A stretch of 64,000 nt of DNA, taken from contig CANNIA010000011.1 of the NCBI GenBank assembly GCA_947504705.1, positions 1 to 64,000 on the forward strand. The letters are read 5' to 3'. Shown piece after piece: positions 49,247 to 64,000 of the stretch; within the stretch, counting starts at the first letter, position 1, and the number at the start of each line of letters is the position of its first letter. Both the position numbers and the translations under genes were made by a program. Below the pieces are notes generated by a model. That model saw only the letters and a list, made by a program, of their open reading frames with translations. It was not told the origin of the DNA and searched no databases. This DNA is from Paracoccaceae bacterium. Its GTDB lineage: Bacteria > Pseudomonadota > Alphaproteobacteria > Rhodobacterales > Rhodobacteraceae.

Positions 49247-49289
49247 CATGGCCTCTGAGTCGCGCGGGTAATTTTATTTCGTCAAGATG

Positions 49290-49319
49290 GAGATAGGCGA
49301 AATTTTCGCACCATGTCAA
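49290..49319 (-). promoter_or_regulatory. Candidate ecm promoter with palindromic operator in the spacer
   Basis: On the minus strand TTGACA (49319-49314, consensus) is followed by GCGAAAATTTCGC (49309-49297, a perfect dyad with one central base) and then TATCTC as a weak -10. A protein bound at the dyad would block polymerase, so repression is the likely mode. It lies about 45-75 bases upstream of the ecm start. Confidence 0.5.
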
Positions 49320-49434
49320 TCGCTGCGCTGCGGCATTTCCGTCGATAGGGTCTGGAGATCATGCCGTGACAGGTGAAAGGGAAGCTGCAAAACTTGGGAA
49401 GAGATGGCTGTTGGATCAGGCGCAGGAGGAAGTA

Positions 49435-49875
49435 ATGCAGATACTAGCTGTTGCGATCGGGTTTGTCATGGCGACAGCCGAGGTCGCGGGGGCGACGGGT
49501 GGGTTTGACTGCCAGGTCGATGACGAAAACCTGAGTCTCTTCGTTTCTGGCACTATTTCGCACGGGCTTGGCGGCATGATCCTTGGCTATGAGGCGATTG
49601 CCGAGTTGAAGGCGAAAGCGGTGCCCGAGGCATTGCGCAAACCCGACCTTTCGGCCGGGCTTGTACACCACTGGCTCGACTACCCCGATCTCTGGCTGCA
49701 CTTCTACGCTGAGACAACAGGCGACGCACCTTACTCCAGCCTTGACCTGATCCTGAAGACCGAAGCGACCATGGACGAGCTGACTTATGAAGGGGAATAC
49801 CGCCTTTCGGTCTTCGACGGTGACACCGGGGAAGTGATCTTGCTGACCGGCAAGGCCACCTGCGGGGGCGAATAG
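49435..49875 (+). CDS. Secreted protein of unknown function
   Basis: 146 residues; signal peptide MQILAVAIGFVMATAEVAGA, then TGGFDCQVDDENLSLFVSGT. The mature part has two Cys (FDCQV and KATCGGE) near each end and predicted beta-strands (DLILKTEATMDELTYEGEYR). No family is recognised. GCAGGAGGAAGTA precedes the chosen ATG; the open frame begins 23 codons earlier without support. It is divergent from ecm. Confidence 0.68.
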   Translation: MQILAVAIGFVMATAEVAGATGGFDCQVDDENLSLFVSGTISHGLGGMILGYEAIAELKAKAVPEALRKPDLSAGLVHHWLDYPDLWLHFYAETTGDAPYSSLDLILKTEATMDELTYEGEYRLSVFDGDTGEVILLTGKATCGGE

Positions 49876-49943
49876 AATCCCTGCGGCAAGCGATTGACAG
49901 GCGGCCCTTCGGCGGGTTTGTTGGCGCGAAAAGGGAGGGACTA

Positions 49944-50372
49944 ATGGAAATCGTGAACACGCTGGCCTTTTGGCTGCATTTTGTCGGTCTGGCGCTGGGC
50001 GGCGTTGCCGCTTTCGGGATTCCGCTGACAGCGGCGCGGATTCATGGGGCCGAGCCTGCAGGTCGGCCTGCACTTGCCCAAGTGATCCAGGTGTTTTCAA
50101 AGGCCGGCAGCGCCGGGATTGGTACGCTGATCCTGACCGGGCTGATAATGACCTTCACAAAGTTGGACGGCTTCGCCGGTCAAAGCCCTTGGTTCCATGC
50201 CAAACTTGCGCTTGTCGTGGTTCTGGTGGGCGTCATCGTCGTCAACAAGAAGCTGGGCGCAAAGGCAATGCAGGGCGATGCCAAGGCTGCAGTAGTGGCG
50301 CGCAAGATGTCGATGGTTGGGATCCTACTTCTTGCCGGGATTATCTTCTCGGCGGTCAAAGCGTTTGGCTGA
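49944..50372 (+). CDS. Four-helix membrane protein of unknown function
   Basis: 142 residues with four membrane segments: NTLAFWLHFVGLALGGVAAF, a second at about 52-70, WFHAKLALVVVLVGVIVVN, and VGILLLAGIIFSAVKAF. The conserved-looking histidines (WLHFVG and WFHAKL) resemble haem- or copper-linked CopD/DUF2214-type membrane proteins, but the assignment is not firm. GGGAGGGACTA precedes the ATG. The gene-free stretch after it (50373-50545) shows nothing else. Confidence 0.68.
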   Translation: MEIVNTLAFWLHFVGLALGGVAAFGIPLTAARIHGAEPAGRPALAQVIQVFSKAGSAGIGTLILTGLIMTFTKLDGFAGQSPWFHAKLALVVVLVGVIVVNKKLGAKAMQGDAKAAVVARKMSMVGILLLAGIIFSAVKAFG

Positions 50373-50545
50373 GACTAGGCCGCAACCGCACGTCAGCCGG
50401 GGGGACTTTGTTTCCACCGGTTGGACGGTCGATTTGGCAACTAATCCGCCAGCCTGTCGTAGGAGCGAAAAAATCAATCTGCGAGGACGCAGAACATCGT
50501 CCGCGACATAGCGGCGACGGGCGCGGCGCGCTGCGTTTTCCGGGG

Positions 50546-50608
50546 CTAAATGATGCCGCAGGACGACAGGGCAAAAAGAAGCAGAAGGCCGGTAACAAGT
50601 CTGGTCAT
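50546..50608 (-). CDS. Very small lipoprotein, 20 residues
   Basis: The frame reads MTRLVTGLLLLFALSSCGII and stops. It has one or two basic residues, a hydrophobic core and a lipobox (LSSC) with only three residues after the Cys, resembling entericidin-like or cell-wall-lipid-type tiny lipoproteins. CGGAG stands 7 bases before the ATG. It is convergent with the DUF-like membrane protein gene and divergent from the acyltransferase gene. Too short for standard gene callers. Confidence 0.55.
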   Translation of the reverse strand: MTRLVTGLLLLFALSSCGII

Positions 50609-50683
50609 GGCGATCTCCGTTCCTGAAACATAGACGAGGCCTTGAGGCTACTCCTGAAGGGCGATTCGCGTAAGCTGGATAGT

Positions 50684-52075
50684 ATGATCGGGGCTACGGG
50701 ATTTACGGCGACAGCCAAGCCTGACAGTCTGGCTGGTATGTTCCGCGCAATCGAAGTTCCGCTCTGGCTTTTGGTGCTGATCCTTGGCTTTGCCACGGTC
50801 AGCTTTGCCACGCATTTCCTGTTCCCCTCGGTCCGCTGGTATTTCCGAAGGCGTGCCGAAGCGGGGCTGGCGCGCCTGAACGCCCGGCGGGACCGCAAGA
50901 TCGACCTGTTCAAACTGGCACGACGGTCCGACATGGTGGCGCGGCTGTCCTATGATCCCAAGGTGGTCGAGGCGGCGATGGCCCATGCGACCGCGACCGG
51001 GGTTCCAGGAGATGTCGCGTTTCAAGAGGCCCGCTGCTATGCCCGCGAGATCGTGCCGGGATTTTCGGCAACGGTCTATTTCGGCTTTGGTACCCGGGCG
51101 GCCAAGTGGCTGAGCCTGCTTTTGTTCAAGGTTCGCGTCGGACAGGTGAATGCCGGCCTGAGCCAGATCGACCCCAAGGCTGCGGTGGTTTTCGTTATGA
51201 ATCATCGTTCGAACGTGGACTATGTGCTTGTGACATGGCTGGTCGCTGAGCGTTCGGCCGTCAGCTATGCGGTAGGCGAATGGGCGCGGGTCTGGCCGCT
51301 TTCGGCGCTGATCCGGTCGATGGGGGCCTATTTCATCCGGCGCGGCAGCCGGAATGCTTTGTACCGCCGCGTGCTGGCACGTTATGTGCAGATGGCGACC
51401 GAAGAGGGCACGACCCAGGCGATCTTTCCCGAGGGTGGCTTGTCGCTGGACGGGCGGATCGGGGCGGCAAAGCTGGGGCTGCTGAGCTATATTGTCGAAG
51501 GCTGGACACCCGAAGCACGCGACGTAGTCTTCGTGCCAGTGGGTCTGGCCTATGATCGGGTGCTGGAAGATCGGGTTTTGGTCGAGGCAGCAAAAAGCGA
51601 AAAGCGGCAGTTCCGCAATCGGCCCTTCTGGGTGGCGGGCCACGCATTGCGCTTTCTGTGGCGGAGGATGTGGGGCAAGACCAAGGGCTTCGGCACGGCA
51701 GCAGCGAGCTTTGGCGGACCGATTTCGCTGCGAGAGCATCTTGGCGCTGGCGGCACCGTAACTTCGCTGGGCGACCGGCTGATGGCGGCGATCGGGGCTG
51801 TGGTTCCGGTGCTGCCTGTGCCGCTGGTCGCCGAGGCGCTGGGCATGGGTGTTGCGTCGCGTGAGGAGCTGGCCGAGCGGATTCAGGCCCTGATCCAGCG
51901 GCTGACTGCTGCCGGAGCGGTCCTGAAGCTGCCAGCGAGCATCGAGGCCGTGCTGGACGAGGGGTTAGAGCCGCTGATGAAACGCGGGCTGGTCAGCAAG
52001 GATTTGCAACCCGTTGCCGAAGAGGTCGAGCTTTTGGCCTTTTACGCCGCTTCACTGCGACAAAATCTTACATGA
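50684..52075 (+). CDS. Glycerol-3-phosphate / lysophosphatidate acyltransferase-like protein
   Basis: 463 residues. An N-terminal membrane helix (PLWLLVLILGFATVSFATHF) precedes a PlsB/PlsC acyltransferase domain with the catalytic VMNHRSNVDYVLVTWLV (HX4D), substrate motif AIFPEGGLSLDGRIG, and GAYFIRRGSRNALYRRVLAR. It would acylate a glycerophosphate backbone for phospholipid synthesis at the inner membrane. The length and N-terminal insert suggest a PlsB-like form. The start is uncertain: TTG 50642, ATG 50684 or ATG 50738. Confidence 0.82.
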   Translation: MIGATGFTATAKPDSLAGMFRAIEVPLWLLVLILGFATVSFATHFLFPSVRWYFRRRAEAGLARLNARRDRKIDLFKLARRSDMVARLSYDPKVVEAAMAHATATGVPGDVAFQEARCYAREIVPGFSATVYFGFGTRAAKWLSLLLFKVRVGQVNAGLSQIDPKAAVVFVMNHRSNVDYVLVTWLVAERSAVSYAVGEWARVWPLSALIRSMGAYFIRRGSRNALYRRVLARYVQMATEEGTTQAIFPEGGLSLDGRIGAAKLGLLSYIVEGWTPEARDVVFVPVGLAYDRVLEDRVLVEAAKSEKRQFRNRPFWVAGHALRFLWRRMWGKTKGFGTAAASFGGPISLREHLGAGGTVTSLGDRLMAAIGAVVPVLPVPLVAEALGMGVASREELAERIQALIQRLTAAGAVLKLPASIEAVLDEGLEPLMKRGLVSKDLQPVAEEVELLAFYAASLRQNLT

Positions 52076-52154
52076 CAACTTATTTCATTTGTGCCCCATG
52101 GGTCCGGGACCTAGGGTCAACCCGACAATAAGTCGCTGAATCATGGAGATTATC

Positions 52155-52505
52155 TTGCACAAAGCCCTGACTGCCGCCCTGGCCCTTTCTGTCGCCGCCC
52201 TGGCGGGCTGCGTTGACACCGGCACCACCTATACCACGACCGGCGGGACAAACCGGCATGTCACGGTCTATAACGCCTCCTACCTGACGATCACGAACTT
52301 CTACGGATCGAGTGTCGGGTCCAGTTCCTGGGAAGAGGATATCCTGGGCAGCTCGATCCTTCCGTCAGGCGGAGCGGTCGACATCAACTTTGACGATGGC
52401 ACCGGAGCCTGCTTGTTCGACTTCAAGGCGGTGTTTGCTGATGGCAGCTCAGCCATCGAGCAGGGGATTGATGTCTGCAGCACCAGCTCGGTCACGGTTC
52501 ACTAA
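52155..52505 (+). CDS. Lipoprotein with a conserved beta domain of unknown function
   Basis: 116 residues from TTG 52155, chosen because GGAG lies 6 bases upstream; ATG 52143 would add four residues and has no site. Signal KALTAALALSVAALAGC with lipobox LAGC. The rest, VTVYNASYLTITNFYGSSVG, SWEEDILGSSILPSGGAVDI and FDDGTGACLFDFKAVFADGS, matches a widespread but unnamed secreted domain of Proteobacteria. The role is unknown. A single gene, followed by the ccr promoter region. Confidence 0.72.
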   Translation: MHKALTAALALSVAALAGCVDTGTTYTTTGGTNRHVTVYNASYLTITNFYGSSVGSSSWEEDILGSSILPSGGAVDINFDDGTGACLFDFKAVFADGSSAIEQGIDVCSTSSVTVH

Positions 52506-52564
52506 GGTCTCTGCAACGCGGCGGACATAAAGTTTCAAAAGCATCGGGTCAGCCTATTGCAAAG

Positions 52565-52594
52565 TTGCGCGCAAGAATATTACCTTGCGCGCAA
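52565..52594. promoter_or_regulatory. Paired TTGCGCGCAA palindromes upstream of ccr
   Basis: TTGCGCGCAA occurs at 52565-52574 and 52585-52594, start-to-start 20 bp, both perfectly self-complementary. A TTGCAAAG half-like sequence precedes them. They lie 43-72 bases upstream of the ccr start, overlapping the probable promoter. They may be the site of an acyl-CoA-responsive regulator (RamB/ScfR-type motifs contain TTGC/GCAA), which is inference. Confidence 0.65.
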
Positions 52595-52636
52595 CAGCGC
52601 TGTGATTCTGCGGCGCGGCATTGACTGGAGGCTCTG

Positions 52637-53926
52637 TTGGCATTGGACACGCACCCCGCACTCGCGACCTATGACGCGCCGATGAAGGACCTGTACGAGC
52701 TGGGCGAGATGCCGCCCCTGGGCCATGTTCCGGCAAAGATGTACACTTGGGCAATCCGGCGCGATCGCCATGGCGCACCCGATCAGGCCATGCAGCAAGA
52801 GGTGGTCGACACCTGGAAGATCGACAGCCAGGAAGTGCTGGTCATGGTGATGGCTGCGGGCGTCAACTACAACGGCGTCTGGGCCGGTCTTGGCCAGCCT
52901 GTCAGCCCGTTTGACGGCCACAAGTCGGATTATCACATCGCCGGATCGGATGCTGCCGGGATCGTTTGGGCGGTGGGTGACAAAGTCAAACGCTGGAAAG
53001 TGGGGGACGAGGTCGTCGTCCACTGCAATCAGGATGACGGCGATGACGAGGAATGCAACGGCGGCGACCCGATGTTTTCCCCCAGCCAGCGGATTTGGGG
53101 GTATGAGACGCCGGACGGATCCTTCGCGCAGTTCACGCGGGTGCAGGCGCAGCAGTTGATGCCGCGGCCTAAGCATCTGACCTGGGAGGAATCAGCTTGC
53201 TACACGCTGACGCTGGCGACGGCTTACCGGATGCTGTTCGGCCATGCGCCGCATGACCTACAGCCCGGGCAGAATGTACTGGTCTGGGGGGCGTCAGGCG
53301 GACTTGGGTCCTATGCGGTCCAACTGGCGAACACGGCGGGGGCGAATGCGATTGGCGTGATCTCGGACGAATCAAAGCGCGATTTCGTCATGGGGCTGGG
53401 CGCCAAGGGCGTGATCAACCGCAACGATTTCAAATGCTGGGGGCAGCTCCCTACGGTCAACAGCGAAGAATACAACACTTGGCTGAAAGAGGCCCGCAAG
53501 TTCGGCAAGGCGATCTGGGACATCACCGGCAAGGGCGTGAACGTCGACATCGTTTTTGAGCATCCAGGTGAGGCGACGTTCCCGGTGTCCTCGCTGGTCT
53601 GCAAAAAGGGCGGCATGGTGGTCATCTGTGCCGGGACCAGCGGGTTCAACTGCACCTTTGACGTGCGCTATATGTGGATGCACCAAAAGCGCCTGCAGGG
53701 GTCGCATTTTGCCCACCTGAAGCAGGCGGCCGCGGCGAACAAGCTGATGGTCGAGCGCCGCCTTGACCCCTGCATGTCCGAGGTCTTCCCTTGGGCGGAA
53801 ATCCCGAAAGCGCACATGCTGATGTGGAAGAACCAGCACAAGCCGGGGAACATGGCGGTTCTCGTTCAAGCGCCGCGCACCGGCCTGAGGACCTTTGAAG
53901 ATACTCTGGAGGCAAGCCTCTCTTGA
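52637..53926 (+). CDS. ccr: Crotonyl-CoA carboxylase/reductase
   Basis: 429 residues, MDR-type. It reduces and carboxylates crotonyl-CoA to (2S)-ethylmalonyl-CoA with NADPH and CO2, the key step of the ethylmalonyl-CoA pathway. Seen are LYELGEMPPLGHVPAKMYTW, AGVNYNGVWAGLGQPVSPFD, the cofactor loop VLVWGASGGLGSYAVQLAN and CAGTSGFNCTFDVRYMWMHQ. The start is TTG, with GGAGG 5 bases upstream and no usable ATG before the conserved region. Ecm, Mch and Mcl2 of the same pathway are in the window. Confidence 0.97.
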   Translation: MALDTHPALATYDAPMKDLYELGEMPPLGHVPAKMYTWAIRRDRHGAPDQAMQQEVVDTWKIDSQEVLVMVMAAGVNYNGVWAGLGQPVSPFDGHKSDYHIAGSDAAGIVWAVGDKVKRWKVGDEVVVHCNQDDGDDEECNGGDPMFSPSQRIWGYETPDGSFAQFTRVQAQQLMPRPKHLTWEESACYTLTLATAYRMLFGHAPHDLQPGQNVLVWGASGGLGSYAVQLANTAGANAIGVISDESKRDFVMGLGAKGVINRNDFKCWGQLPTVNSEEYNTWLKEARKFGKAIWDITGKGVNVDIVFEHPGEATFPVSSLVCKKGGMVVICAGTSGFNCTFDVRYMWMHQKRLQGSHFAHLKQAAAANKLMVERRLDPCMSEVFPWAEIPKAHMLMWKNQHKPGNMAVLVQAPRTGLRTFEDTLEASLS

Positions 53927-54280: not shown

Positions 54281-55828
54281 ATGCAGGCCCCCGCGCTGAC
54301 CTTTTCCGATGACCAGGCAGATGCCTATGACCGGCTGACCGCCGCTTTTGTTGGTGCGGGCGTCGATATGGTCGAGGGCGCGCTATCTCCGATGGCCGAA
54401 GGACAGAACACTGTCTTGGCTGTGGTCGGTAAGGCTGGATCGGGCAAGACCATGCTTTTGGCCGAGCTCTACCGGGGCATGAAGGCTGCCGGGGTCGAGG
54501 TCATCTCGGGCGACTACGAAGGCCGCAAGCGCAAGGACCGCCGGACGCTCGCGATTCTGGCCCCGACGAACAAGGCGGCAAGTGTCTTGCGGCTGCGTGG
54601 GGTGCCCGCCACCACGATCCACCGCATCCTCTACACCCCGGTCTATCACCCGGAATACGAAAAGGTTGCCGAATGGCTCGCGGGAACTGGCACGCGGCCG
54701 GTTATCGAGGGGATGACCGATGTGGCGCTTGACCGGGCCTTTGCCTTTTACCAGCAAGTGGCCTCGATCCCCGGTGCCTTGGCCGCAGCTGGGCTGAAGG
54801 GCAGCGATTTCATCACCGGCTGGAAGCGGAGGGAAGAGCCGCTGGATATCGGCTTTGTCGACGAAAGCTCGATGCTGGACGACCGCGCGCTGGGGGATCT
54901 GCGCGAAATCTTCCCGACATTGGTGCTGTTTGGCGATCCCGCACAGCTGGCACCCGTGGGGTCTTCGGGCGAGATGGTGTTCGACAAGTTGGGCGAGAGC
55001 CGCAGGCTGGTGCTGAGCCGAATCCACCGGCAGGCCGAGGATAACCCGATCCTCGATCTCGCGCATGCCTTGGGCGATGACCGGCTGGGGTTCGAAGAGT
55101 TCGAGGCGATGGTTCAAGCCAAAGCGCGGGAGGATGACCGCGTGGTCTGGGCCGAGCGGGTCGAGGCGGGGCTGATGGCGCGATCGCCGGTCCTTGTCTG
55201 GCGCAATGCGACGCGGGTGCGGTTGATCCAGGCCTTCCGCAATGCGTTCGGCGCGCCTGAGGATGAACTCTTGCCGGGGGAACCGCTGATCTGCGATGGG
55301 ATCGAACTGCCCTTGAAGCATCGCAAGAAACGGATCGATCTTGAGGCTCGGGGACTGATCAAGGGCGCTCAGGTGATCTATCTCGGCCCCGGCAACCGCC
55401 CCGGCTTTGCCCGGCTGCATGTGGTGGGGGCGGAAGAGCCACAGGTTTCGGCGGCCAGCATCATCAAGATCGAAAAGCCGGATGAGGAGGAACCCTTCAT
55501 CCCCTCGGCCGCCACGATGGGTGCGGCCTTTCTGCATGGCGCAGCGGTGACGATCCACAAGGCTCAAGGCAGCCAGTGGGAGGAAGTGCAGGTCTTCGCC
55601 CCCGACCTTTACGCCGCCGCCCAATCCGGGCGCAGCGAGGCCGGGGTTCCCCTGTGGAAGCGCCTCGCTTATGTCGCGATCACAAGGGCGCAGCATCGGC
55701 TGTATTGGGTGGTGCGGAACCGGCTGGCGCGACCGGCCTCGCCCCTGTCGGTCGAGGATCTGAAGCGCGAACCCGCACCCTTTGCCTTGGGTGAGGCTTC
55801 CCCTTCCGCTGCGGGCGATCTAGGATAG
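54281..55828 (+). CDS. RecD-like AAA ATPase / DNA helicase (SF1)
   Basis: 515 residues. Walker A in VVGKAGSGKTMLLAELY, Walker B-like DIGFVDESSMLDDRAL, motif III LVLFGDPAQLAPVGSSGEM, motif IV LSRIHRQAEDNPILDLA and the C-terminal UvrD-like AAVTIHKAQGSQW with YVAITRAQHRLYWVV. This is the RecD2-like stand-alone helicase of Rhodobacteraceae; it would unwind DNA 5'-3' in repair or replication restart. It lacks RecBC partners here. It precedes a small Lrp-domain gene. Confidence 0.88.
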   Translation: MQAPALTFSDDQADAYDRLTAAFVGAGVDMVEGALSPMAEGQNTVLAVVGKAGSGKTMLLAELYRGMKAAGVEVISGDYEGRKRKDRRTLAILAPTNKAASVLRLRGVPATTIHRILYTPVYHPEYEKVAEWLAGTGTRPVIEGMTDVALDRAFAFYQQVASIPGALAAAGLKGSDFITGWKRREEPLDIGFVDESSMLDDRALGDLREIFPTLVLFGDPAQLAPVGSSGEMVFDKLGESRRLVLSRIHRQAEDNPILDLAHALGDDRLGFEEFEAMVQAKAREDDRVVWAERVEAGLMARSPVLVWRNATRVRLIQAFRNAFGAPEDELLPGEPLICDGIELPLKHRKKRIDLEARGLIKGAQVIYLGPGNRPGFARLHVVGAEEPQVSAASIIKIEKPDEEEPFIPSAATMGAAFLHGAAVTIHKAQGSQWEEVQVFAPDLYAAAQSGRSEAGVPLWKRLAYVAITRAQHRLYWVVRNRLARPASPLSVEDLKREPAPFALGEASPSAAGDLG

Positions 55829-55850
55829 CGCGAAGATAAGGGAGGGTCAG

Positions 55851-56087
55851 ATGGCCTTGGTATTCGTCCAGTTTCGCTGCACCCCCGGTCAGACCTATGA
55901 CGTCGCCAATGCGATCTGGGACCGGGAAGTGGTAAGCGAACTTTATTCCACCAGCGGTGACTATGACCTGATTGCCAAGGTCTATATCCCGGATGGCGAG
56001 GATACCGGGCATTATCTGTCGTCGAAGCTCTTCGACATTCCAGGTATCCAGCGCACGCTGACCACGATGACGTTCAAAGCGTTCTGA
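55851..56087 (+). CDS. Stand-alone Lrp/AsnC ligand-binding (RAM) domain protein
   Basis: 78 residues: LVFVQFRCTPGQTYDVANAI, STSGDYDLIAKVYIP and DTGHYLSSKLFDIPGIQRTL are the RAM (regulation of amino-acid metabolism) fold of Lrp/AsnC proteins, without the helix-turn-helix. It probably forms dimers or octamers that bind amino acids and may modulate a full Lrp protein. GGGAGGGTCAG precedes the ATG. Confidence 0.87.
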   Translation: MALVFVQFRCTPGQTYDVANAIWDREVVSELYSTSGDYDLIAKVYIPDGEDTGHYLSSKLFDIPGIQRTLTTMTFKAF

Positions 56088-56171
56088 TCGCCTTCGCGAT
56101 CGGGCAAGGCGTTCCAAGGGCCAAATTTCTTAAGGAAGAAATATGTCAAAATCCTTGCTTAAGGATTTTGG

Positions 56172-57227
56172 TCAGAGCCAGGCGTCGCGACCAGTGCCTG
56201 TGGCGTCGGCGACATTGGTAAAGCCGTCGCGGACAAGAAGCGCATCAAGTCCGTTGGCAATCTGCGGGATTAGCGAGATCCCTTGATAAATCATGGCCGA
56301 ATAGACCTGCACCGCCGAAGCCCCGGCGCGGATTTTTTCATAAGCCTGCTCGGGGTTCGAGATGCCGCCGACACCGATCAGGGGCAGCCTGCCTTCGGTC
56401 AGCTTGGACAACTGCGCCAGTACGCGGGTAGACTTTTCGAACAATGGTGCTCCGGAAAGGCCACCCGTTTCGCCTTTGCTTGAAGAAATCAAACCTTCAC
56501 GCGAAAGCGTGGTGTTGGTGGCGATGATGCCGGAAAGGCCCGAGGCGAGGGCGACTTCGGCAATCTGGGTAAGCTCATCGGGGGTCAGATCGGGGGCGAT
56601 CTTCAGGAAAATCGGGATCTTTCGATCAAGGGTGGCGCGGGTCTCCATCACTCCGGCAAGGAGGGCTGCAAGAGCTGCGGGACCCTGCAGGTCGCGCAGT
56701 TTCTCGGTGTTGGGCGAGCTGACATTGACGGTGGCGAAATCGACATGCGGGCCGCAGATGGCAAGCACCCTGGCGAAATCTGCGGCGCGGGTCTCACTGG
56801 TCTTGTTCGCGCCGAGGTTCAGGCCGACGGGCACCGGGCCGGGTTTGCGCGCGGCAAGGCGGGCGGCGATGGCCTCGGCCCCTTCGTTATTGAAGCCGAA
56901 GCGGTTGATCACGGCACGGTCGTCGGTCAGCCGGAACAGGCGCGGTTTCGGGTTGCCGGGCTGTGGCAGAGGCGTGGCTGCGCCGACTTCGATAAAGCCG
57001 AAACCTGCACGTGAAAGCGGCGCGATGGCGGTGGCGTTCTTGTCACAGCCTGCCGCCAACCCGATTGGGTTTTGCAGGGAAAGCCCAGCGACTGCCGTCG
57101 CAAGGCGCGGCGAGGTCACGACGCCCGGCAAAGGAACCAGCCCGGCACGCAGGGCGAGAAGGGATAGCCGGTGGGCACGCTCGGGGTCAAAGCGGTGTAG
57201 AAGGGCAAGGCCCGCGCGTTCGATCAT
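56172..57227 (-). CDS. pyrD: Quinone-dependent dihydroorotate dehydrogenase (class 2)
   Basis: 351 residues. It oxidises dihydroorotate to orotate with FMN and passes electrons to ubiquinone (pyrimidine synthesis). Membrane-associating N-terminal helices [60 protein letters not shown], the catalytic-Ser motif [14 protein letters not shown] and the FMN part [20 protein letters not shown] are visible. It follows the DUF952 gene by two bases, so they form one operon. Confidence 0.95.
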
Positions 57228-57229
57228 GG

Positions 57230-57568
57230 TCAAAAGAGGCCTTCAGGGAAGATGTGGCCGGTGGCGCCAAGGGGCAGCGACTTGTCCCAGACGACCTCGT
57301 CCAGCGTCAGCGCGCGGTAAAGATGGGGGAAAAACTGTCCGCCACGTGAAGTTTCCCATTTCAAGGCAGCGCCAAGCCGGTCGGGGTCGAAGGCGACCAG
57401 CACAAGGTCGCTTTCCGTGGCAAACCATTTCGCCGCAGTCTCGGCCACCTGGGCGGGGGTCGAGAAATGGATGAAGCCGTCCGCCAGATCGATGGGCGCG
57501 CCAAGCGTTTCACCGGCGGCACGGAAGGCATCCCATTCAGGGCGGCGAAGGATCTTCAGGATCAACAT
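57230..57568 (-). CDS. DUF952 domain protein
   Basis: 112 residues. [40 protein letters not shown] and [20 protein letters not shown] are the DUF952 pattern, a family whose fold is related to ADP-ribosyltransferase/glutathione-like domains but with unknown role. The start at 57568 follows homologues; no clear ribosome binding site is seen. It is adjacent to pyrD (stop, then ATG 2 bases later), as in many Rhodobacteraceae. Confidence 0.87.
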
Positions 57569-57721
57569 GGGCGCGGGAATAGCGGCGATTGGCCAAGCTG
57601 GCAATGCTTTGCCACTTGTCATGCCCCTGAGACCCGAAGGCGGGATCAAGCTTTGACAGCCATGGCACCCCGGGCGCAGACTTCCGGCATTGCAGAAAGC
57701 CAATCACGAAGGAGAACCGCG

Positions 57722-59221
57722 ATGAGAGGAATTTCAAGACTTGCTGTTCTGGCGGCGCTGGCCGCAGGCCCGGTCGGGGCGGAGACGGTCAAGTTGACAC
57801 TTCTGGGCGTGGGCGACATCTACAACTTCGAGGAAGAAGATGGACGCGGCGGGTTTGCCCGGCTGAACGCGGTTGCGAAGGCCGAACGCGCGGCGAATCC
57901 GAACACGCTTTACCTGTTCAACGGGGACATGCTGTCGCCCTCACTCGCCTCGGGGTTCGACAAGGGGCGGAACACCGTGGATTTCACCAACCTCGTGCCC
58001 TTCGATCTTGCTGTGCCGGGCAACCATGAATTCGACTTTGGCCCCGAGAATTTCGCCGAAAAACTGGCCGCGTCGAAATACCCCTGGGCCGCGATCAACA
58101 TCACCAATGGCGACGGCTCGCCCGTGGCGGGTCTGGGTGGTGTGACGGTCAAAGAGGTTGGCGGCTTGAAAGTTGCGCTGATCCCGGTTGCGCAGGATAC
58201 CTCGCCCGAAGTGTCTTCCACGGGCAGCCTGAAGTTCGGGCCGACGGTGGATATGGGCATCGCAGCGGCGGAACAGGCGCGGTCGGACGGGGCGGATATC
58301 GTCGTCGGTGTCGTCCAGACCAGTATGGAGAACGACAGGGTGCTGATCGCCTCTCATGCCTTTGACGTGATCCTTTCGGGCGACGACCATTCCTATGCCA
58401 CCGCCTATGACGGCGTTACGGCCTATGTCGAGACGAGCATCGACGGGCAGTTCCTGACGCCCATCGATCTGATGGTCGAGGTCGAGGTGGATGACGAAGG
58501 CAAGCGCCAGATCAGCTGGACACCAGGCTTTCGTTTCATCGACACCGCGACGGTTACACCGGACCCGGAGTCGGTCGCCATGGCCGATGCCCTGCGCGCC
58601 GGAATGGACCAGACGCTGGATGTCGAGATCGGTACCGTGGAGGCCACGCTGGACAGCCGCCGCAACGTGGTGCGCAGCGAGGAAGCCACGATGGGCAACC
58701 TCATCACCGATGCGATGCGCGATGCGACGGGTGCGGACATCGCGATGATGAACGGGGGCGGCATTCGCGGCGACACGACCTATGATGCAGGCCGCAAGTT
58801 GACGCGGCGGAATATCCTGACAGAGCTGCCATTTGGCAACGTGACGGTGGTGACCGAACTCCCCGGCAGCCAGATTCTGTTGGCGCTGGAGAATGGGGTC
58901 AGCGCGGTGGAAAAAGGTGCGGGGCGCTTCCCGCAAGTGTCGGGTCTGACCTATGCCTTTGATGGGACGGCCCCGGCTGGGTCGCGGGTCAGCGAAGTGA
59001 TGGTCGGCGGCGCGCCCTTGGAGGCGGGCAAGCTCTATAGGGTCGCGGTCAACGATTACATTCTGGGCGGCGGCGATGGCTATGACGCGCTGGGCGGCGG
59101 GCGGATCGTGACGGATGGGCCAACCGGTAGCCTCGTGGCCAATGATGTCATGGCCTATGTCGAGAAGCTGGGAATCGTGAACCTTGGTGTCGAGGGCCGT
59201 ATCAAGAAGCTGGGGCAGTAA
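57722..59221 (+). CDS. 5'-nucleotidase / UshA-like periplasmic metallophosphatase
   Basis: 499 residues; signal peptide RLAVLAALAAGPVGA, then ETVKLTLLGVGD. Calcineurin-type metal sites: VPGNHEFDFGPENFA and LSGDDHSYATA; the usual first ligand pair D-x-H is D-I-Y here (GVGDIYNFEE), so a histidine is missing or replaced. The C-terminal 5'-nucleotidase domain has NGGGIRGDTTYDAG and VAVNDYILGGGDGYDALG. It would dephosphorylate nucleotides in the periplasm. GAAGGAGAACC precedes the ATG. Confidence 0.85.
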   Translation: MRGISRLAVLAALAAGPVGAETVKLTLLGVGDIYNFEEEDGRGGFARLNAVAKAERAANPNTLYLFNGDMLSPSLASGFDKGRNTVDFTNLVPFDLAVPGNHEFDFGPENFAEKLAASKYPWAAINITNGDGSPVAGLGGVTVKEVGGLKVALIPVAQDTSPEVSSTGSLKFGPTVDMGIAAAEQARSDGADIVVGVVQTSMENDRVLIASHAFDVILSGDDHSYATAYDGVTAYVETSIDGQFLTPIDLMVEVEVDDEGKRQISWTPGFRFIDTATVTPDPESVAMADALRAGMDQTLDVEIGTVEATLDSRRNVVRSEEATMGNLITDAMRDATGADIAMMNGGGIRGDTTYDAGRKLTRRNILTELPFGNVTVVTELPGSQILLALENGVSAVEKGAGRFPQVSGLTYAFDGTAPAGSRVSEVMVGGAPLEAGKLYRVAVNDYILGGGDGYDALGGGRIVTDGPTGSLVANDVMAYVEKLGIVNLGVEGRIKKLGQ

Positions 59222-59286
59222 GCTTGCGACAACCGGGCAGGCGCCTGCCAGGTTGCATTGCTTGGGGTCGCGGATAGTCTGGCGGC

Positions 59287-59943
59287 ATGTGCGGGCGTTT
59301 CACCATCACCCATCCCAATGATGCGCTGGCCGCGCTGTTCGGGGCTGTGCCGGGGAATGACCTGCCAGTGGTACCCAATTTCAACGTCTGCCCGACGAAC
59401 CCGGTCGTGGTGGTGACCTCCGACGGCGGGCAGCGCAGGCTGCGGGCGATGCGCTGGGGGTTTCTGCCCAGCTGGTACAAGACCCCGAACGATGGGCCGC
59501 TGATCATCAACGCGCGGTCCGACACGGTGGCCACGAAACCCGCCTTCCGCGAGGCGATCCGAAGCCGCCGGTGCATCGTTCCTGCCAGCGGGTTTTATGA
59601 ATGGAACGAGGGCGAGGGCGGCACGCGCCTGCCATGGTATTTCACCCGCGCCGATGGCGAACCGATGGCGCTGGCCGGGGTCTGGCAGCGTTGGGGCGAG
59701 ATCGACACGATGGCAATCGTGTCGACTGAGGCGGGGCCTGGAATGACCAAAATCCACCACCGTGAGCCGGTGCTGATGGAGCGCAAGGACTGGCCCTTGT
59801 GGCTTGGCGAAGCGGGGCACGGGGCGGCGGTCTTGATGAAAGCCTCGGCCGAAGGGGTGATCGGTGCGCCCTATCGGGTGGGGATTACGGTGAATTCAAA
59901 CCGGGCCGCGGGGCCGGATCTTATTGCGCCGATTGCGGCCTGA
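59287..59943 (+). CDS. SOS response-associated peptidase (SRAP, YedK/HMCES-type)
   Basis: 218 residues. The catalytic and cross-linking Cys2 is in MCGRFTIT; further conserved residues are NARSDTVATKPAFREAI, VPASGFYEWNE (Glu) and MTKIHHREPVLM (His). It forms a thiazolidine cross-link with abasic sites in single-stranded DNA, protecting them during replication. It stands alone, 65 bases after the phosphatase gene. Confidence 0.93.
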   Translation: MCGRFTITHPNDALAALFGAVPGNDLPVVPNFNVCPTNPVVVVTSDGGQRRLRAMRWGFLPSWYKTPNDGPLIINARSDTVATKPAFREAIRSRRCIVPASGFYEWNEGEGGTRLPWYFTRADGEPMALAGVWQRWGEIDTMAIVSTEAGPGMTKIHHREPVLMERKDWPLWLGEAGHGAAVLMKASAEGVIGAPYRVGITVNSNRAAGPDLIAPIAA

Positions 59944-59990
59944 CTTCGTGCCTGAAGTTCAGGCTCGCCTTTTGCCTTGGGGTGGCGCGA

Positions 59991-60761
59991 TCAGGCCGGA
60001 TCAGCGATGACAAGCCGCGCACCTTCGCCAGCGAGATGTGCCGCAAATCCTGCCGCGGGCTCGGTATCGGTGATCAGCGTCACCCCTTCGCGCCATTCGC
60101 CGTAGACAGTCAGGGATGACCGGCCGATCTTGCTGTGGTCGGCAACGATCAGCGTCTCGGCTGACCTGCGCATCATCGCGCCGTAGATCAGACCGGGGCC
60201 GATGGCGGCGTCGCTAGGCCCTTCTTCGGTCAAGCCGCTGGCCCCAAGGATTGCCTTGCTGGCCCGATACTTCTGCAAGGCGTCGATGGTGTCGGGGCCG
60301 CTGATCAGCCCCTCTCGCCCGTCATACTGGCCGGGCAGCATCAGGACCCGGTGCAAGGGATTGGTAGCAAGTGCTGCGGCGATGGAAAAGGCGTGGGTGA
60401 TCACGGTCAGGTGGCTGTGGTCCGCCGCAAGCCGCCGCGCGACATGCAGCGTTGTCGCCCCGCCGCCGATCATCAGGATGTCGCCTGGTTCAACTAGGGC
60501 GCTGGTGCGGGCGGCAATGGCTTCGCGTTCGGCCACCATCAACTGTTCACGTTCGGCTAGCGCGGGTTCCAGCGTCATCGGGCGCACGGCACCGCCGTAG
60601 GTGCGGTTGATCAGGCCTCGTTCCTCAAGTTCCGTAAAGTCGCGGCGGATGGTTTCGGTGGAAACCGCCAGGCGGTAGGCAATCTCGTGCACGCGCAGCG
60701 AGGGGGCCGCGCGCAGCTCGGCCACGATCCGGGCCTGACGTTCGGATTTGCTTTGTCGCAT
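59991..60761 (-). CDS. DeoR/GlpR-family transcriptional repressor
   Basis: 256 residues. The N-terminal helix-turn-helix RIVAELRAAPSLRVHEIAYR then VSTETIRRDFTELEERGLIN is of DeoR type, followed by the sugar-phosphate-isomerase-like effector domain (GDILMIGGGATTLHVARRLA, KAILGASGLTEEGPSDAAIG). The family usually responds to a phosphorylated metabolite. It is divergent from the PLP enzyme / aldehyde dehydrogenase / shell-protein operon and probably represses it through the dyads between. An amino-alcohol phosphate effector would fit, by inference. Confidence 0.9.
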   Translation of the reverse strand: MRQSKSERQARIVAELRAAPSLRVHEIAYRLAVSTETIRRDFTELEERGLINRTYGGAVRPMTLEPALAEREQLMVAEREAIAARTSALVEPGDILMIGGGATTLHVARRLAADHSHLTVITHAFSIAAALATNPLHRVLMLPGQYDGREGLISGPDTIDALQKYRASKAILGASGLTEEGPSDAAIGPGLIYGAMMRRSAETLIVADHSKIGRSSLTVYGEWREGVTLITDTEPAAGFAAHLAGEGARLVIADPA

Positions 60762-60853
60762 CCTGCCGATTCCCTGTTTCGTATTGGGATCATTGCCGAT
60801 TGTGGGCTTTCCCACAACTGATGCACTGCTACCCCAAGTATATCGGGAAGAAT

Positions 60854-60891
60854 GGGCAAAAATTGCCCGATTGACAACAAATAGCTGTTGT
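60854..60891. promoter_or_regulatory. Two dyads in the DeoR / microcompartment-operon divergent region
   Basis: GGGCAA-AAA-TTGCCC (60854-60868) and ACAACA-AATAGC-TGTTGT (60874-60891) are both perfect inverted repeats. The second overlaps TTGACA (60871-60876), a consensus -35 box for the rightward operon. Occupancy would block that promoter, which fits repression by the adjacent DeoR-type protein. Confidence 0.6.
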
Positions 60892-60933
60892 GATGCCATC
60901 AGAAGATGCTACGATTCGCAAGAAATCTGTGGG

Positions 60934-62226
60934 ATGTCAAACATGTTCGACTACGGCCACTTCCAGTTCGAGAGCAAGCAGGACCTGTTCGACAAGGCGA
61001 TCAAGTTCTGGAATCCGGACAAGACCAAGTTCTGGCAGTCGGTCGGGGTCGATCTGGTGATCGACCGGCGTGAGGGCTATTTCCTCTATGACATGTCAGG
61101 TCGACGGCTGATCGACCTGCATTTGAACGGCGGAACTTACAACTTTGGCCATCGCCACCCCGAACTGGTCGAGACGCTGAAAGGCGCGCTCGACTACTTC
61201 GACATGGGCAACCATTGGTTTCCCTCGGTCGCGCGGTCGGCGCTCTCCGAGGCGTTGATCAGGGTCTCGCCCGGCATGGCCTATGCGGTCTTTGGTGCCG
61301 GCGGGGCCGAGGCTGTGGATATCGCGCTGAAGTCTGCCCGATATGCCACAAAACGCCGCAAGATCGTGTCGATCATCAAGGGCTATCACGGCCACGGTGG
61401 GTTGTCGGTGGCAACGGGAGACGAGCGGTTCTCGAAGATATTCTTGTCCGACCAGCCCGCTGACTTTATCCAAGTGCCGTTCAACGACATTGGCGCAATG
61501 GAGCAGGCGCTGAGCGGCAATGACATAGCGGCGCTGATCATGGAGACGATCCCCGCGACCTATGGTTTCCCAATGCCCAATCCGGGCTATCTGCAGGCCT
61601 GTCGTGACCTCTGCACCCGCTATGGCGCGATGTATATCGCCGACGAAGTGCAGACCGGCCTGATGCGCACGGGCGAGATGTGGGGTTGGCAGGCCTATGG
61701 CATCCAGCCCGACATCATGGTCACGGCCAAGGGCCTGACGGGCGGGATCTATCCGATTTCGGCGGCACTTCTGAACGAAAAGGCGGGCGGCTGGCTGCAC
61801 GAGGATGGGGCGGCGCATATCTCGACTTCTGGTGGGGCGGAACTGGGCTGCGTCGTCGCCCACAAGGTGATCGAGATGCTGCAGCGCCCCCAAGTGCGGG
61901 CGAATGTGTTGACGGTGGCCGAGTTCATGCGCGACGGCATGGCCGAGATGATCGCGCGCCACGGCGATGTGTTCACCGGCGTGCGGCAAAAGGGCGTGAT
62001 CCTTGGGCTGGAGTTTGGAAATTCCGGCGAAAACGCGGTGGCCGTGTCGCGGGCACTTTATGAAAACGGGGTCTGGGCGATCTTTTCCTCGCTCGACAAG
62101 CGGGTGTTGCAGTGGAAGCCGGGGGCCCTGCTGACGGCTGACCTGTGCCAGGAAATCCTTGACCGGTTTGATGCCGCGATGCCACGGGCGCGCGAATTGG
62201 TACATGCTGCGAAGAAGGGGAACTGA
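60934..62226 (+). CDS. Class III PLP enzyme (aminotransferase or amino-alcohol-phosphate phospholyase)
   Basis: 430 residues. PLP-lysine about residue 266 in TAKGLTGGIYPISAALL; cofactor site AVFGAGGAEAVDIALKSARY, IKGYHGHGGLSVATGDERF and MYIADEVQTGLMRTGEMWGW. In aminoacetone-type (AAU/RMM) microcompartment loci a class III enzyme of this kind is thought to act as a phospholyase on 1-amino-2-propanol phosphate giving propionaldehyde. A true transaminase remains possible. It is the first gene after the DeoR repressor; the next gene starts 1 base after its stop. Start ATG 60934 or 60943. Confidence 0.82.
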   Translation: MSNMFDYGHFQFESKQDLFDKAIKFWNPDKTKFWQSVGVDLVIDRREGYFLYDMSGRRLIDLHLNGGTYNFGHRHPELVETLKGALDYFDMGNHWFPSVARSALSEALIRVSPGMAYAVFGAGGAEAVDIALKSARYATKRRKIVSIIKGYHGHGGLSVATGDERFSKIFLSDQPADFIQVPFNDIGAMEQALSGNDIAALIMETIPATYGFPMPNPGYLQACRDLCTRYGAMYIADEVQTGLMRTGEMWGWQAYGIQPDIMVTAKGLTGGIYPISAALLNEKAGGWLHEDGAAHISTSGGAELGCVVAHKVIEMLQRPQVRANVLTVAEFMRDGMAEMIARHGDVFTGVRQKGVILGLEFGNSGENAVAVSRALYENGVWAIFSSLDKRVLQWKPGALLTADLCQEILDRFDAAMPRARELVHAAKKGN

Positions 62227-62227
62227 G

Positions 62228-63745
62228 ATGGTTGATCGTTCCGAACCCCTGTTGAAGATGCCCGATGTCGCGCTGGAACAGGCGCGGATGATGCTGGACC
62301 GTGCCCGGTGGGCTGCGGCGCGGATGCAGAAGTTGGACCGTACGGCAGTGCTGCGGATTTGCGAGGCGGTGGCGAAGGCGGGCCACGCCCGCGCGCAGGA
62401 CTTTGCCGAAATGGCGGTGCGTGAGACCGGCATGGGGGTCGTGGCGCACAAGGTGCAGAAGAACCAGGCCTGCTCGCAGGGGATTCTGGACCTGTATCGG
62501 AACGAAGATTTCATCTCGCCCCGCATTCAAGCGGATCGAAAGATCGTGGAACTGCCACGCCCCGCCGGGGTGATCTTTGCGCTGGTGCCGGTGACGAACC
62601 CGGTGGCCACGGTCTATTTCAAGGCCATGCTGGCGCTGATGACGCGCAACGCGATCATCCTGTCGCCGCATCCGCAGGCGAAAGGCGTCTGCGCAGAGGC
62701 CGCGCGGGTCATGGCCGAGGCAGCAAAAGCTGCGGGTGCGCCGGATGGGTCGATCCAGGTGATCGATGCCCCGACGATCCCGCTGATCGAGGCGCTGATG
62801 GGTGACGAGCGGATCGACTTGATCGTGGCAACCGGTGGCCCTGCGGTGGTCAAGGCGGCCTATCGCTCAGGCAATCCGGCGATTGGGGTTGGCCCCGGCA
62901 ATGCGCCGGTTGTCGTCGATGACAGCGCCGATCTGAAAGCGGCGGCCAAGCGGATCGTCGCGTCGAAAAGCTTCGACAATTCGATCCTGTGCACCAATGA
63001 ATCGACGGTTCTGGCCTTTGCCAGCATCGCCGACCGGCTGCTGGAGGCGATGAAGGCCGAAGGAGCGCATCTTTGCACGTCGGATCAGGTTGCCAAGTTG
63101 CGTGCGCTTCTGTTCACTGACACCGGGTTCAACACAGCGATGATCGGCAAGGATGCCGAGGTCATCGCCCGCGCGGCTGGCTTCAGCGCGCCGGGGGCGA
63201 AGATTCTAGTGACGCCGGTTGATATGGTTCAGCCGGAAGAAAAGCTGGTGCGCGAAAAGCTGGCGCCGGTTCTGGCCTTCGCCCGGGTGCCCGGGATCGA
63301 TCAGGCGATTTCCGCTGCGCGGTCGATGATGCGCAAGGCGGGGCAGGGCCATTCAGCGGTGATCCATTCCCGGAACGAAGGCCATATCCTTGCCTTTGCC
63401 GCAGGAGTGCCGGCTCTGCGGGTGGCGGTCAACGTCGGGGCCTCGCTGGGGGCTTCCGGGTTTGAAACCCACCTTGGGCCGTCGATGACCATCGGCACCG
63501 GCTTTGCGGGCGGCTCGTCCTTGGGCGAGAACCTGACGCCGCAGCACCTGCTGCATTTCACCCGCATTGCGTATAACAAGGACTCGGGCGAGGCCTTCGG
63601 CAACTTCGCGGGGTTGGACCCGTTGAACTTGCCCAAGCGGGTGGCGGCCCCCATGTCGCTGGCTGTCAACAACTCCGAAGCTGATCTCCGCGCCGAATTG
63701 CGCAAGATCATCTTGGAAGAGCTGAAGTCGGTGCTGGCGGCATAA
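62228..63745 (+). CDS. CoA-acylating aldehyde dehydrogenase with C-terminal encapsulation-like tail
   Basis: 505 residues of the EutE/PduP-AdhE acylating class. NVPV-like VIFALVPVTNPVATVYFKAM, IDLIVATGGPAVVKAAYRSG, GVGPGNAPVVVDD and the catalytic Cys255 in SKSFDNSILCTNES. It would oxidise an aldehyde with NAD+ and CoA to the acyl-CoA (propionaldehyde to propionyl-CoA, or sulfoacetaldehyde in related enzymes). After a short linker the last about 20 residues (ELRKIILEELKSVL) form an amphipathic helix, as in cargo peptides of microcompartments. Its stop overlaps the shell-gene start (TAATG). Confidence 0.88.
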   Translation: MVDRSEPLLKMPDVALEQARMMLDRARWAAARMQKLDRTAVLRICEAVAKAGHARAQDFAEMAVRETGMGVVAHKVQKNQACSQGILDLYRNEDFISPRIQADRKIVELPRPAGVIFALVPVTNPVATVYFKAMLALMTRNAIILSPHPQAKGVCAEAARVMAEAAKAAGAPDGSIQVIDAPTIPLIEALMGDERIDLIVATGGPAVVKAAYRSGNPAIGVGPGNAPVVVDDSADLKAAAKRIVASKSFDNSILCTNESTVLAFASIADRLLEAMKAEGAHLCTSDQVAKLRALLFTDTGFNTAMIGKDAEVIARAAGFSAPGAKILVTPVDMVQPEEKLVREKLAPVLAFARVPGIDQAISAARSMMRKAGQGHSAVIHSRNEGHILAFAAGVPALRVAVNVGASLGASGFETHLGPSMTIGTGFAGGSSLGENLTPQHLLHFTRIAYNKDSGEAFGNFAGLDPLNLPKRVAAPMSLAVNNSEADLRAELRKIILEELKSVLAA

Positions 63746-64000
63746 TGGCAACGCTTCGCTCCCACATCTTCATCGACCAGCTGCAACCGCAGACCATGTG
63801 CTATCTTGGCACCTGGATCCGTGGTTCGCTACCCCGCACCGGCATGGCCGCACAGGTTATCGAGGTCGCCCCCGGTCTGGACATAGAGGCGCTGACCGAC
63901 GTTGCCCTTAAATCGGCCGAAGTGCAGGGCGGCATTCTGGTCGTCGAACGGCAGTTTGGCTATCTGGAGTTCCACTCCCGCGACATTTCCGCCGTGAAAG
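63745..64000 (+). CDS. Probable bacterial-microcompartment shell protein, 5' part (cut by window end)
   Basis: 85 residues are visible: ATLRSHIFIDQLQPQTMCYL, GTWIRGSLPRTGMAAQVIEV, then LTDVALKSAEVQGGILVVER and QFGYLEFHSRD. The second half has the helix-strand order of BMC domains (ALKSA.V..G.LVVERQFG.LEFH). The first half resembles the leading part of tandem/permuted shell proteins of AAU/RMM-type loci. It starts in the TAA of the aldehyde dehydrogenase, so translation is coupled. The remainder and other shell genes should lie just beyond the window. Confidence 0.62.
   Translation, partial: MATLRSHIFIDQLQPQTMCYLGTWIRGSLPRTGMAAQVIEVAPGLDIEALTDVALKSAEVQGGILVVERQFGYLEFHSRDISAVK

Follow-up and report, generated by a model that had tools for sequence, protein, structure and literature searches.

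The right edge of the window, a 64,000-base stretch of DNA from a Paracoccaceae bacterium, cuts into a complete locus for a bacterial microcompartment (BMC) metabolosome of the RMM type, the amino-alcohol organelle named after Rhodococcus and Mycobacterium and also called AAUM. The window is bases 1-64000 of contig C11 (97,939 bases in total) in a genome of 3.72 Mb that is 99.9% complete; the remainder of the locus lies on this contig, and coordinates above 64000 are given in contig C11 numbering. The locus probably encodes an RMM2-type metabolosome that converts an amino alcohol to propionyl-CoA under repression by a DeoR-family protein, with a diol dehydratase gene run supplying substrate or aldehyde. 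RMM2 is already known as a kind of locus, alphaproteobacteria included: what distinguishes it from RMM1 is the presence of diol dehydratase genes, encoded on the opposite strand (Axen et al., 2014; PMC4207490), it has been reported in the alphaproteobacterium Paracoccus yeei (PMC8156839), and one epsilonproteobacterial and one Marinimicrobia RMM2 were called "phylum outliers" (Sutter et al., 2021; PMC8217296). As judged from its sequences, the branch described here differs in its repressor and in a one-piece diol dehydratase without the usual repair partner.

An earlier note, drawn from the window alone, had proposed that a DeoR repressor, a class III pyridoxal phosphate (PLP) enzyme, an aldehyde dehydrogenase and a probable shell gene form one tight divergent unit; coordinates and Pfam matches agree with this, and the spacing was read directly in the sequence. 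The DeoR gene (59991..60770, minus strand; HTH_DeoR and DeoRC; 259 aa from its conserved start) lies upstream of, and divergent from, the gene for the class III PLP enzyme (60934..62226, plus strand; Aminotran_3 PF00202, 240.8 bits), a proposed aminopropanol-phosphate phospho-lyase. One base separates the latter gene from that of an acylating-type aldehyde dehydrogenase (62228..63745, plus strand; Aldedh PF00171), whose TAA stop shares one base with the ATG of a BMC-T gene (63745-64350, plus strand; the window copy ends at 64000), giving TAATG. The plus strand continues with genes for a 126-aa protein (64347-64727), a BMC-P (64727-64981), a BMC-H (65007-65288), a second BMC-T (65292-65957) and an APH-family kinase (65977-66990). 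This operon is tightly packed, with gaps of -4 to +25 bases between neighbours, and from the PLP enzyme gene to the kinase gene it has the same order as the actinobacterial Mycolicibacterium agri locus L085, as the note had expected for mycobacterial-type loci. All genes from there to the fused dehydratase lie on the minus strand and include a short-chain dehydrogenase (67067-67837), which with the kinase had been predicted to lie downstream, an amino-acid permease (67901-69436), an isochorismatase-like hydrolase (69507-70214), and the small (71893-72312) and fused large plus medium (72299-74614; 771 aa) subunits of a diol dehydratase.

Shell proteins, putative cargo peptides and a proposed operator

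The completed 201-aa protein encoded at 63745 matched PF00936 with 43.7 bits against a cut-off of 24.5, which makes the probable shell gene of the note a BMC shell gene. Further shell genes to the right, a check set in advance, were found as BMC-P, BMC-H and the second BMC-T within 2.3 kb, so that the locus holds a BMC-H, a BMC-P and two BMC-T of RMM type. PF00936 has two matches in the whole genome, at 64165-64338 (BMC-T) and 65019-65246 (BMC-H); the second BMC-T was missed by the profile and recovered by sequence comparison. The best match of the first BMC-T in the PDB was 5l39 (MSM0275, 294 bits), and MSM0275, MSM0273 and MSM0271 were the best matches of three of the shell proteins, while BMC-H matched a tandem BMC-H fusion construct (6ner) first and MSM0272 second. 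The closest PDB relatives of the shell proteins belong to the RMM1/AAUM of Mycobacterium smegmatis; for some of these entries we take this identity as given.

Species genomes were scanned with a BMC-T alignment. The best 80 of 305 relatives, 10 loci from the query's family and the query itself made 91 loci. Two of these were set aside, L056 because its length shows it to be the contig of L021 and L079 because it hardly differs from L078, which leaves 89. An actinobacterial-type group comprises 19 of these, including the Spirochaetaceae locus L065 and the uncultured L097, and the others number 70. All six core genes are present in 76 of the 89, several of the rest being cut by contig ends; the gene set is conserved far beyond chance.

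Two peptides recur with it. The aldehyde dehydrogenase ends in the encapsulation-peptide-like helix LRAELRKIILEELKSVLAA, with an equivalent segment in 70 of 86 aldehyde dehydrogenases, and the 126-aa protein starts M-TQNDLRQMVRDVLREVV, with an equivalent in 52 of 75 N-termini. These counts come from regular expressions; the 16 and 23 sequences missed were by eye mostly alike, or had a doubtful start or cut end, and were left uncounted. Amphipathic helices of such kind are the usual encapsulation peptides. For the 126-aa protein a function could not be drawn from the predicted fold (mean pLDDT 81 but pTM 0.39; 0 PDB matches at E ≤ 0.001).

The repressor gene is divergent from the operon. Its open reading frame is readable to 60899, but relatives begin at the equivalent of MRQSKSERQ (60770), and therefore the spacer between DeoR and PLP enzyme genes measures 163 bp. 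We compared these spacers in 17 loci, the query included, the DeoR proteins of the 16 others being 63-79% identical to the query's, and found the palindrome ACAACA-N6-TGTTGT, a pattern chosen after viewing the sequences. It occurs without mismatch in 5 spacers and with one mismatch in 8 (13 of 17 within one mismatch), and in these 13 it overlaps TTGACA (11 loci) or TTTACA (2 loci); L021 has a site with two mismatches at another place in its spacer. In the query the candidate operator (60874..60891, strandless) is a perfect palindrome, overlaps the proposed -35 box TTGACA of the operon (60871..60876, plus strand), and has no second site in the whole contig at up to two mismatches. The share of first-order Markov resamples scoring as well was 0 to 0.0055 for 14 loci, figures that are descriptive only because the pattern was picked after looking.

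Regulators differ between the groups. A GntR-type (UTRA) match was found in 16 of the 19 actinobacterial-type loci, in keeping with the note's remark that other regulators serve there. Among the 70 other loci, DeoR matched in 29 (one of them also with GntR) and AraC in 26, with 5 having both and 20 neither. The query has DeoR instead of the GntR regulator described for RMM1, a trait that we do not take as defining the RMM type.

The proposed pathway and its alternatives

The kinase had 6ef6 as its best PDB match and the short-chain dehydrogenase 3pk0, 3rih, 6ci8 and 6ci9; 6ef6 and 6ci8/6ci9 are, we presume, studied aminopropanol enzymes. The nearest NCBIfam models of the aldehyde dehydrogenase are acetylating acetaldehyde dehydrogenases, with scores below their cut-offs, and those of the hydrolase, far under cut-off, are biuret amidohydrolase and RutB. 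From these relations we infer the substrate, the order of reactions, encapsulation and repression as follows. An imported amino alcohol, most likely 1-amino-2-propanol, which the short-chain dehydrogenase would interconvert with aminoacetone, would be phosphorylated by the APH kinase, and the class III PLP enzyme would then form propionaldehyde by eliminating phosphate and ammonia. Kept in the shell by its C-terminal peptide, the acylating aldehyde dehydrogenase would convert this to propionyl-CoA, which would exit and be used through the methylmalonyl-CoA route. The 126-aa protein, through its own N-terminal peptide, probably assists in collecting cargo. DeoR would repress the operon at the palindrome over the -35 box until an intermediate of the pathway, perhaps phosphorylated, lifts the repression, and the opposite-strand run of dehydrogenase, permease, hydrolase and fused diol dehydratase would supply substrate or a second source of aldehyde. 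A published proposal for RMM likewise leads from aminoacetone to propionyl-CoA (PMC8156839).

Genes for a possible sink are at hand. In the window, 52724-53896 encodes a member of the crotonyl-CoA reductase family that scores over its cut-off, and 47786-49237 one of the methylmalonyl-CoA-mutase family; these two belong perhaps to the ethylmalonyl-CoA pathway. Another mutase lies on contig C3. Because both families are present, propionyl-CoA could enter central metabolism, as the note had supposed. The two window genes (47786-53896) lie about 6-12 kb from the compartment operon.

Several observations weigh against the proposed metabolosome. The operator is lacking (4-5 mismatches) in 3 of the 17 spacers, those of L020, L054 and L067, and none was found near the second, minus-strand gene run, so that the two runs may not be co-regulated. 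A search of the genome for the phosphotransacylase family (PduL, PF06130), positive in two control genomes, gave no match, and among the genes of the locus we recognised none for recycling CoA or NAD; RMM loci without a recognised one were noted by Axen et al. (PMC4207490). The permease gene carries an in-frame TAA (69122-69124), due to decay into a pseudogene or to an assembly or sequence error. Finally, the named families nearest to the PLP enzyme are transaminases, and sequence alone cannot separate a phospho-lyase from a transaminase. The enzyme might accordingly be read as a transaminase that turns aminoacetone into methylglyoxal, with the aldehyde dehydrogenase forming pyruvyl-CoA, a route proposed by Axen et al. 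(PMC4207490). We regard this as unlikely: the route gives the kinase no clear role, though the two genes stay adjacent even in a locus that has no shell (below), and the later proposal is propionyl-CoA (PMC8156839). About as improbable to us is that the whole locus is a recently acquired passenger decaying in this genome. The stop in the permease is absent from the aligned stretches of 21 other loci, and the sole same-genus genome searched (G191) has no matching BMC-T; yet every other gene of the locus has an open frame, the operator carries no mismatch, the G+C content equals that of the surroundings (0.61-0.64), and another transporter may serve instead of the permease.

A possibility that we take more seriously, while doubting it, is that the diol dehydratase is merely a neighbour, a cytosolic enzyme for propanediol or glycerol with no part in the compartment. 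By eye, no encapsulation-peptide-like motif was seen in the linker between large and medium parts of 22 dehydratase chains, nor at either end of the query chain; the enzyme sits in a separate transcription unit without a DeoR operator, and it occurs without BMC genes in genomes G500, G673 and G726. In G500 and G726 the fused dehydratase stands without shells and with no kinase or PLP enzyme match in the stretches read, that of G500 having a 60% dehydrogenase match and an 82% binding-protein match, which speaks for an independent role of the dehydratase as well. On the other hand, the dehydratase recurs in 8 of the 19 actinobacterial-type and 13 of the 70 other loci, many stretches being too short to tell, and in G419 it shares its strand with the genes for hydrolase, transporter, kinase and shell, interrupted by a single AraC gene in the other orientation. 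The hydrolase accompanies it in 13 of 13 non-actinobacterial loci with a dehydratase, and is found in 10 without one and in 0 of 19 actinobacterial-type loci. A further case is G673 (L138, 2463-10749), where genes for PLP enzyme, kinase, dehydrogenase, permease, hydrolase, small subunit and fused dehydratase have matching order and orientation, at 64-81% identity. This 19-kb stretch has no aldehyde dehydrogenase, DeoR or shell match, and the genome no BMC-T and no PF00936 match. Because hydrolase and dehydratase cluster with the amino-alcohol genes there, they are tied to them, and the clustering argues that the PLP enzyme, kinase, dehydrogenase, permease, hydrolase and dehydratase form one pathway. 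G673 can thereby serve as a natural control for the contribution of shell and aldehyde dehydrogenase to the metabolosome proposed here.

A fused diol dehydratase without a match to the usual reactivase

Large and medium dehydratase subunits are one chain in all copies read whole, and the query's large subunit keeps all seven positions that we take to be catalytic (Q141, H143, E170, E221, Q296, D335 and S362 in diol dehydratase numbering). At the position of Ser301 in diol dehydratase, all 24 copies of this branch that cover the site have Asp, 16 copies being from proteobacterial-type and 8 from actinobacterial-type genomes, with duplicate fetches counted once and the genomes of L043 and L062, whose initial stretches miss the site, covered via L130 and L131. 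Gln336 is replaced by Ala in 20 of the 24, and by Asn, Ser, Thr and Cys in L085, L077, L134 and L136; the query equivalents are Asp318 and Ala353 in the 771-aa frame. Two genomes, those of L120 (G411) and L121 (G395), carry elsewhere a second fused dehydratase of another branch, 43-44% identical to the query's, that keeps Ser301 and has Ala at 336. The change at Gln336 is therefore not special to the query's branch. The unfused protein of G763 and the Klebsiella chain keep Ser and Gln at both positions.

The diol dehydratase reactivase (DDR) profile PF08841 matched in none of 20 genomes with a proteobacterial-type dehydratase; this profile alone was sought, and an unrelated protein may stand in. 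Nine of the 20 are at least 99% complete, G322 is 71% complete with a fragmented dehydratase gene, and 10 have no completeness figure. PF08841 did match in 5 of 6 actinobacterial-type genomes with a dehydratase (G406 without, L109 left out) and in G763, the genome with the unfused enzyme; among 14 control genomes it matched in two, and the dehydratase profile PF02286 in none. Inside the loci, 7 of the 19 of actinobacterial type have a DdrA-like match and none of the 70 others does. In L021 (G322), dehydratase pieces at 242-1104 lie in different frames beside an open shell operon, near the contig end.

Natural fusion of the large and medium subunits had been described before (Liu 2010, cited by PMC7674605 in section 12 and by PMC6542942), the B12 glycerol dehydratases of Mesorhizobium loti and M. 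smegmatis likewise having a large subunit that carries medium-subunit sequence. The text consulted on these two enzymes (PMC7674605) makes no statement on reactivase absence or on changes at Ser301 and Gln336. For the Klebsiella enzymes, a lysate assay showed slower inactivation after fusion, and with glycerol as substrate kinact was reduced by either single change, Ser301Ala or Gln336Ala (PMC7674605). Because fusion and replacement of Ser301 and Gln336 are the two types of change that slow Klebsiella inactivation, the dehydratase might work without a reactivase. We propose, tentatively and with considerable doubt, a bifunctional compartment in which both branches would act on amino alcohols and the naturally fused B12 enzyme would need no reactivase, the Asp at Ser301 suggesting a polar or cationic substrate such as an amino-diol. 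The main counter-evidence to reactivase-free working comes from the same study and from the actinobacterial copies. The S301A/Q336A double mutant had a kcat/kinact with glycerol of 0.006 versus 0.009 for wild type, that is, worse, and with 1,2-propanediol both single mutants show a higher kinact than wild type (PMC7674605). A rule by which fusion plus changed Ser301/Gln336 means no reactivase proved insufficient, as fusion and Asp are also present in the actinobacterial-type copies, and the DDR domain is nevertheless found in 5 of 6 of those genomes. A B12 dehydratase without the usual reactivase bears on the engineering problem of glycerol and diol dehydratase inactivation (PMC7674605, section 12).

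Relatives, known systems and surroundings

The RMM locus type was found in many Hyphomicrobiales, Rhodospirillales and Rhodobacteraceae records. With the report from P. yeei (PMC8156839), this leaves the "little-described alphaproteobacterial variant" of the earlier note only partly true; its label "AAU/RMM-like" holds for the RMM type, but with the dehydratase, hydrolase and permease that lie outside the window, the locus resembles RMM2 more than a simple RMM1. It shares with RMM2 (Axen et al., 2014; Sutter et al., 2021) the shell genes, PLP enzyme, aldehyde dehydrogenase, kinase, short-chain dehydrogenase and opposite-strand diol dehydratase, as well as a permease gene, here with its in-frame stop. 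It departs from the published RMM descriptions, on which the comparison with P. yeei also rests, in having DeoR versus the GntR described for RMM1, no reactivase, and an isochorismatase-like hydrolase, which may or may not be one of the RMM1 hydrolases that RMM2 is said to lack. The regulator and the hydrolase also set it apart from the actinobacterial RMM1/AAUM loci. The Pdu microcompartment similarly combines a diol dehydratase, an acylating-type aldehyde dehydrogenase and BMC shell genes; unlike Pdu, the query has fused large and medium subunits, a different shell set, an added amino-alcohol kinase and PLP enzyme, and neither DDR (PF08841) nor a PduL-type phosphotransacylase in its genome. 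In the literature searched, which largely excluded subscription papers and supplements, we found no description of the operator, the reactivase absence, the Ser301Asp signature, the shell-less sibling locus or the placement in a mostly Hyphomicrobiales clade. P. yeei TT13 was isolated for growth on propylene glycol, and its route to pyruvate was inferred partly from an absent pdu operon (PMC5773746); yet an RMM2 locus is listed there (PMC8156839), which offers a second reading of that strain.

A BMC-T match is present in 20 of the 394 genomes of the query's family, a count that includes the query genome itself. A six-protein tree of 79 loci (FastTree, midpoint-rooted, with coarse taxon labels; the uncultured bacterium L097 groups with Actinobacteria) placed the query with L050, L051 and the Hyphomicrobiales locus L064 (support 1.0), inside a clade of 21 whose members are mostly Hyphomicrobiales (support 1.0). 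Rhodobacteraceae other than the query occupy three more positions in the tree, of which one is in this clade. The BMC-T is 80-91% identical to those of the clade and 58-66% to those of 8 of the 10 family loci, G386 and G322 being at 83%; from placement and identities together we read separate acquisitions within the family. The amino-alcohol organelle, as we propose it, is thereby placed in a well-supported alphaproteobacterial clade with DeoR regulators, for which a concrete candidate operator is now supplied. Plasmid-borne relatives numbered 5 among 72,556 records, one of them, in Rhodococcus jostii RHA1, above 60% identity. Two candidate marks of insertion were rejected: no tRNA stretch of at least 14 bases recurs elsewhere on the contig and no direct repeat of at least 15 bases links 55001-61000 with 74001-78000, against insertion at the downstream tRNA-Gly, and the flat G+C content does not mark a compositional island. 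Nine of the 20 family genomes with a BMC-T match (G056, G108, G109, G134, G213, G245, G328, G379 and G390) have a single BMC-T at 38-41% identity, probably of another BMC type.

Transporters differ between the groups. APC permease matches occur in 17 of 19 actinobacterial-type versus 4 of 70 other loci, and PotD-like binding-protein matches in 0 of 19 versus 33 of 70; many proteobacterial RMM loci have a PotABCD-like ABC transporter in place of the amino-acid permease, for example L062 (12823-16787). Locus L029 (G215) has RMM-type shell genes and a 40% identical aldehyde dehydrogenase with no PLP enzyme or kinase match in its stretch, and perhaps serves another substrate. In the query, a TPR protein (70219-71880, minus strand), whose cluster occurs in 3 of 91 loci, lies between hydrolase and dehydratase genes. 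An SMP-30/gluconolactonase-like gene (74632-75528), divergent from the dehydratase, and a tRNA-Gly (75638-75711) close the stretch; SMP-30/gluconolactonase-like genes also lie near the dehydratase in L063 and L130.

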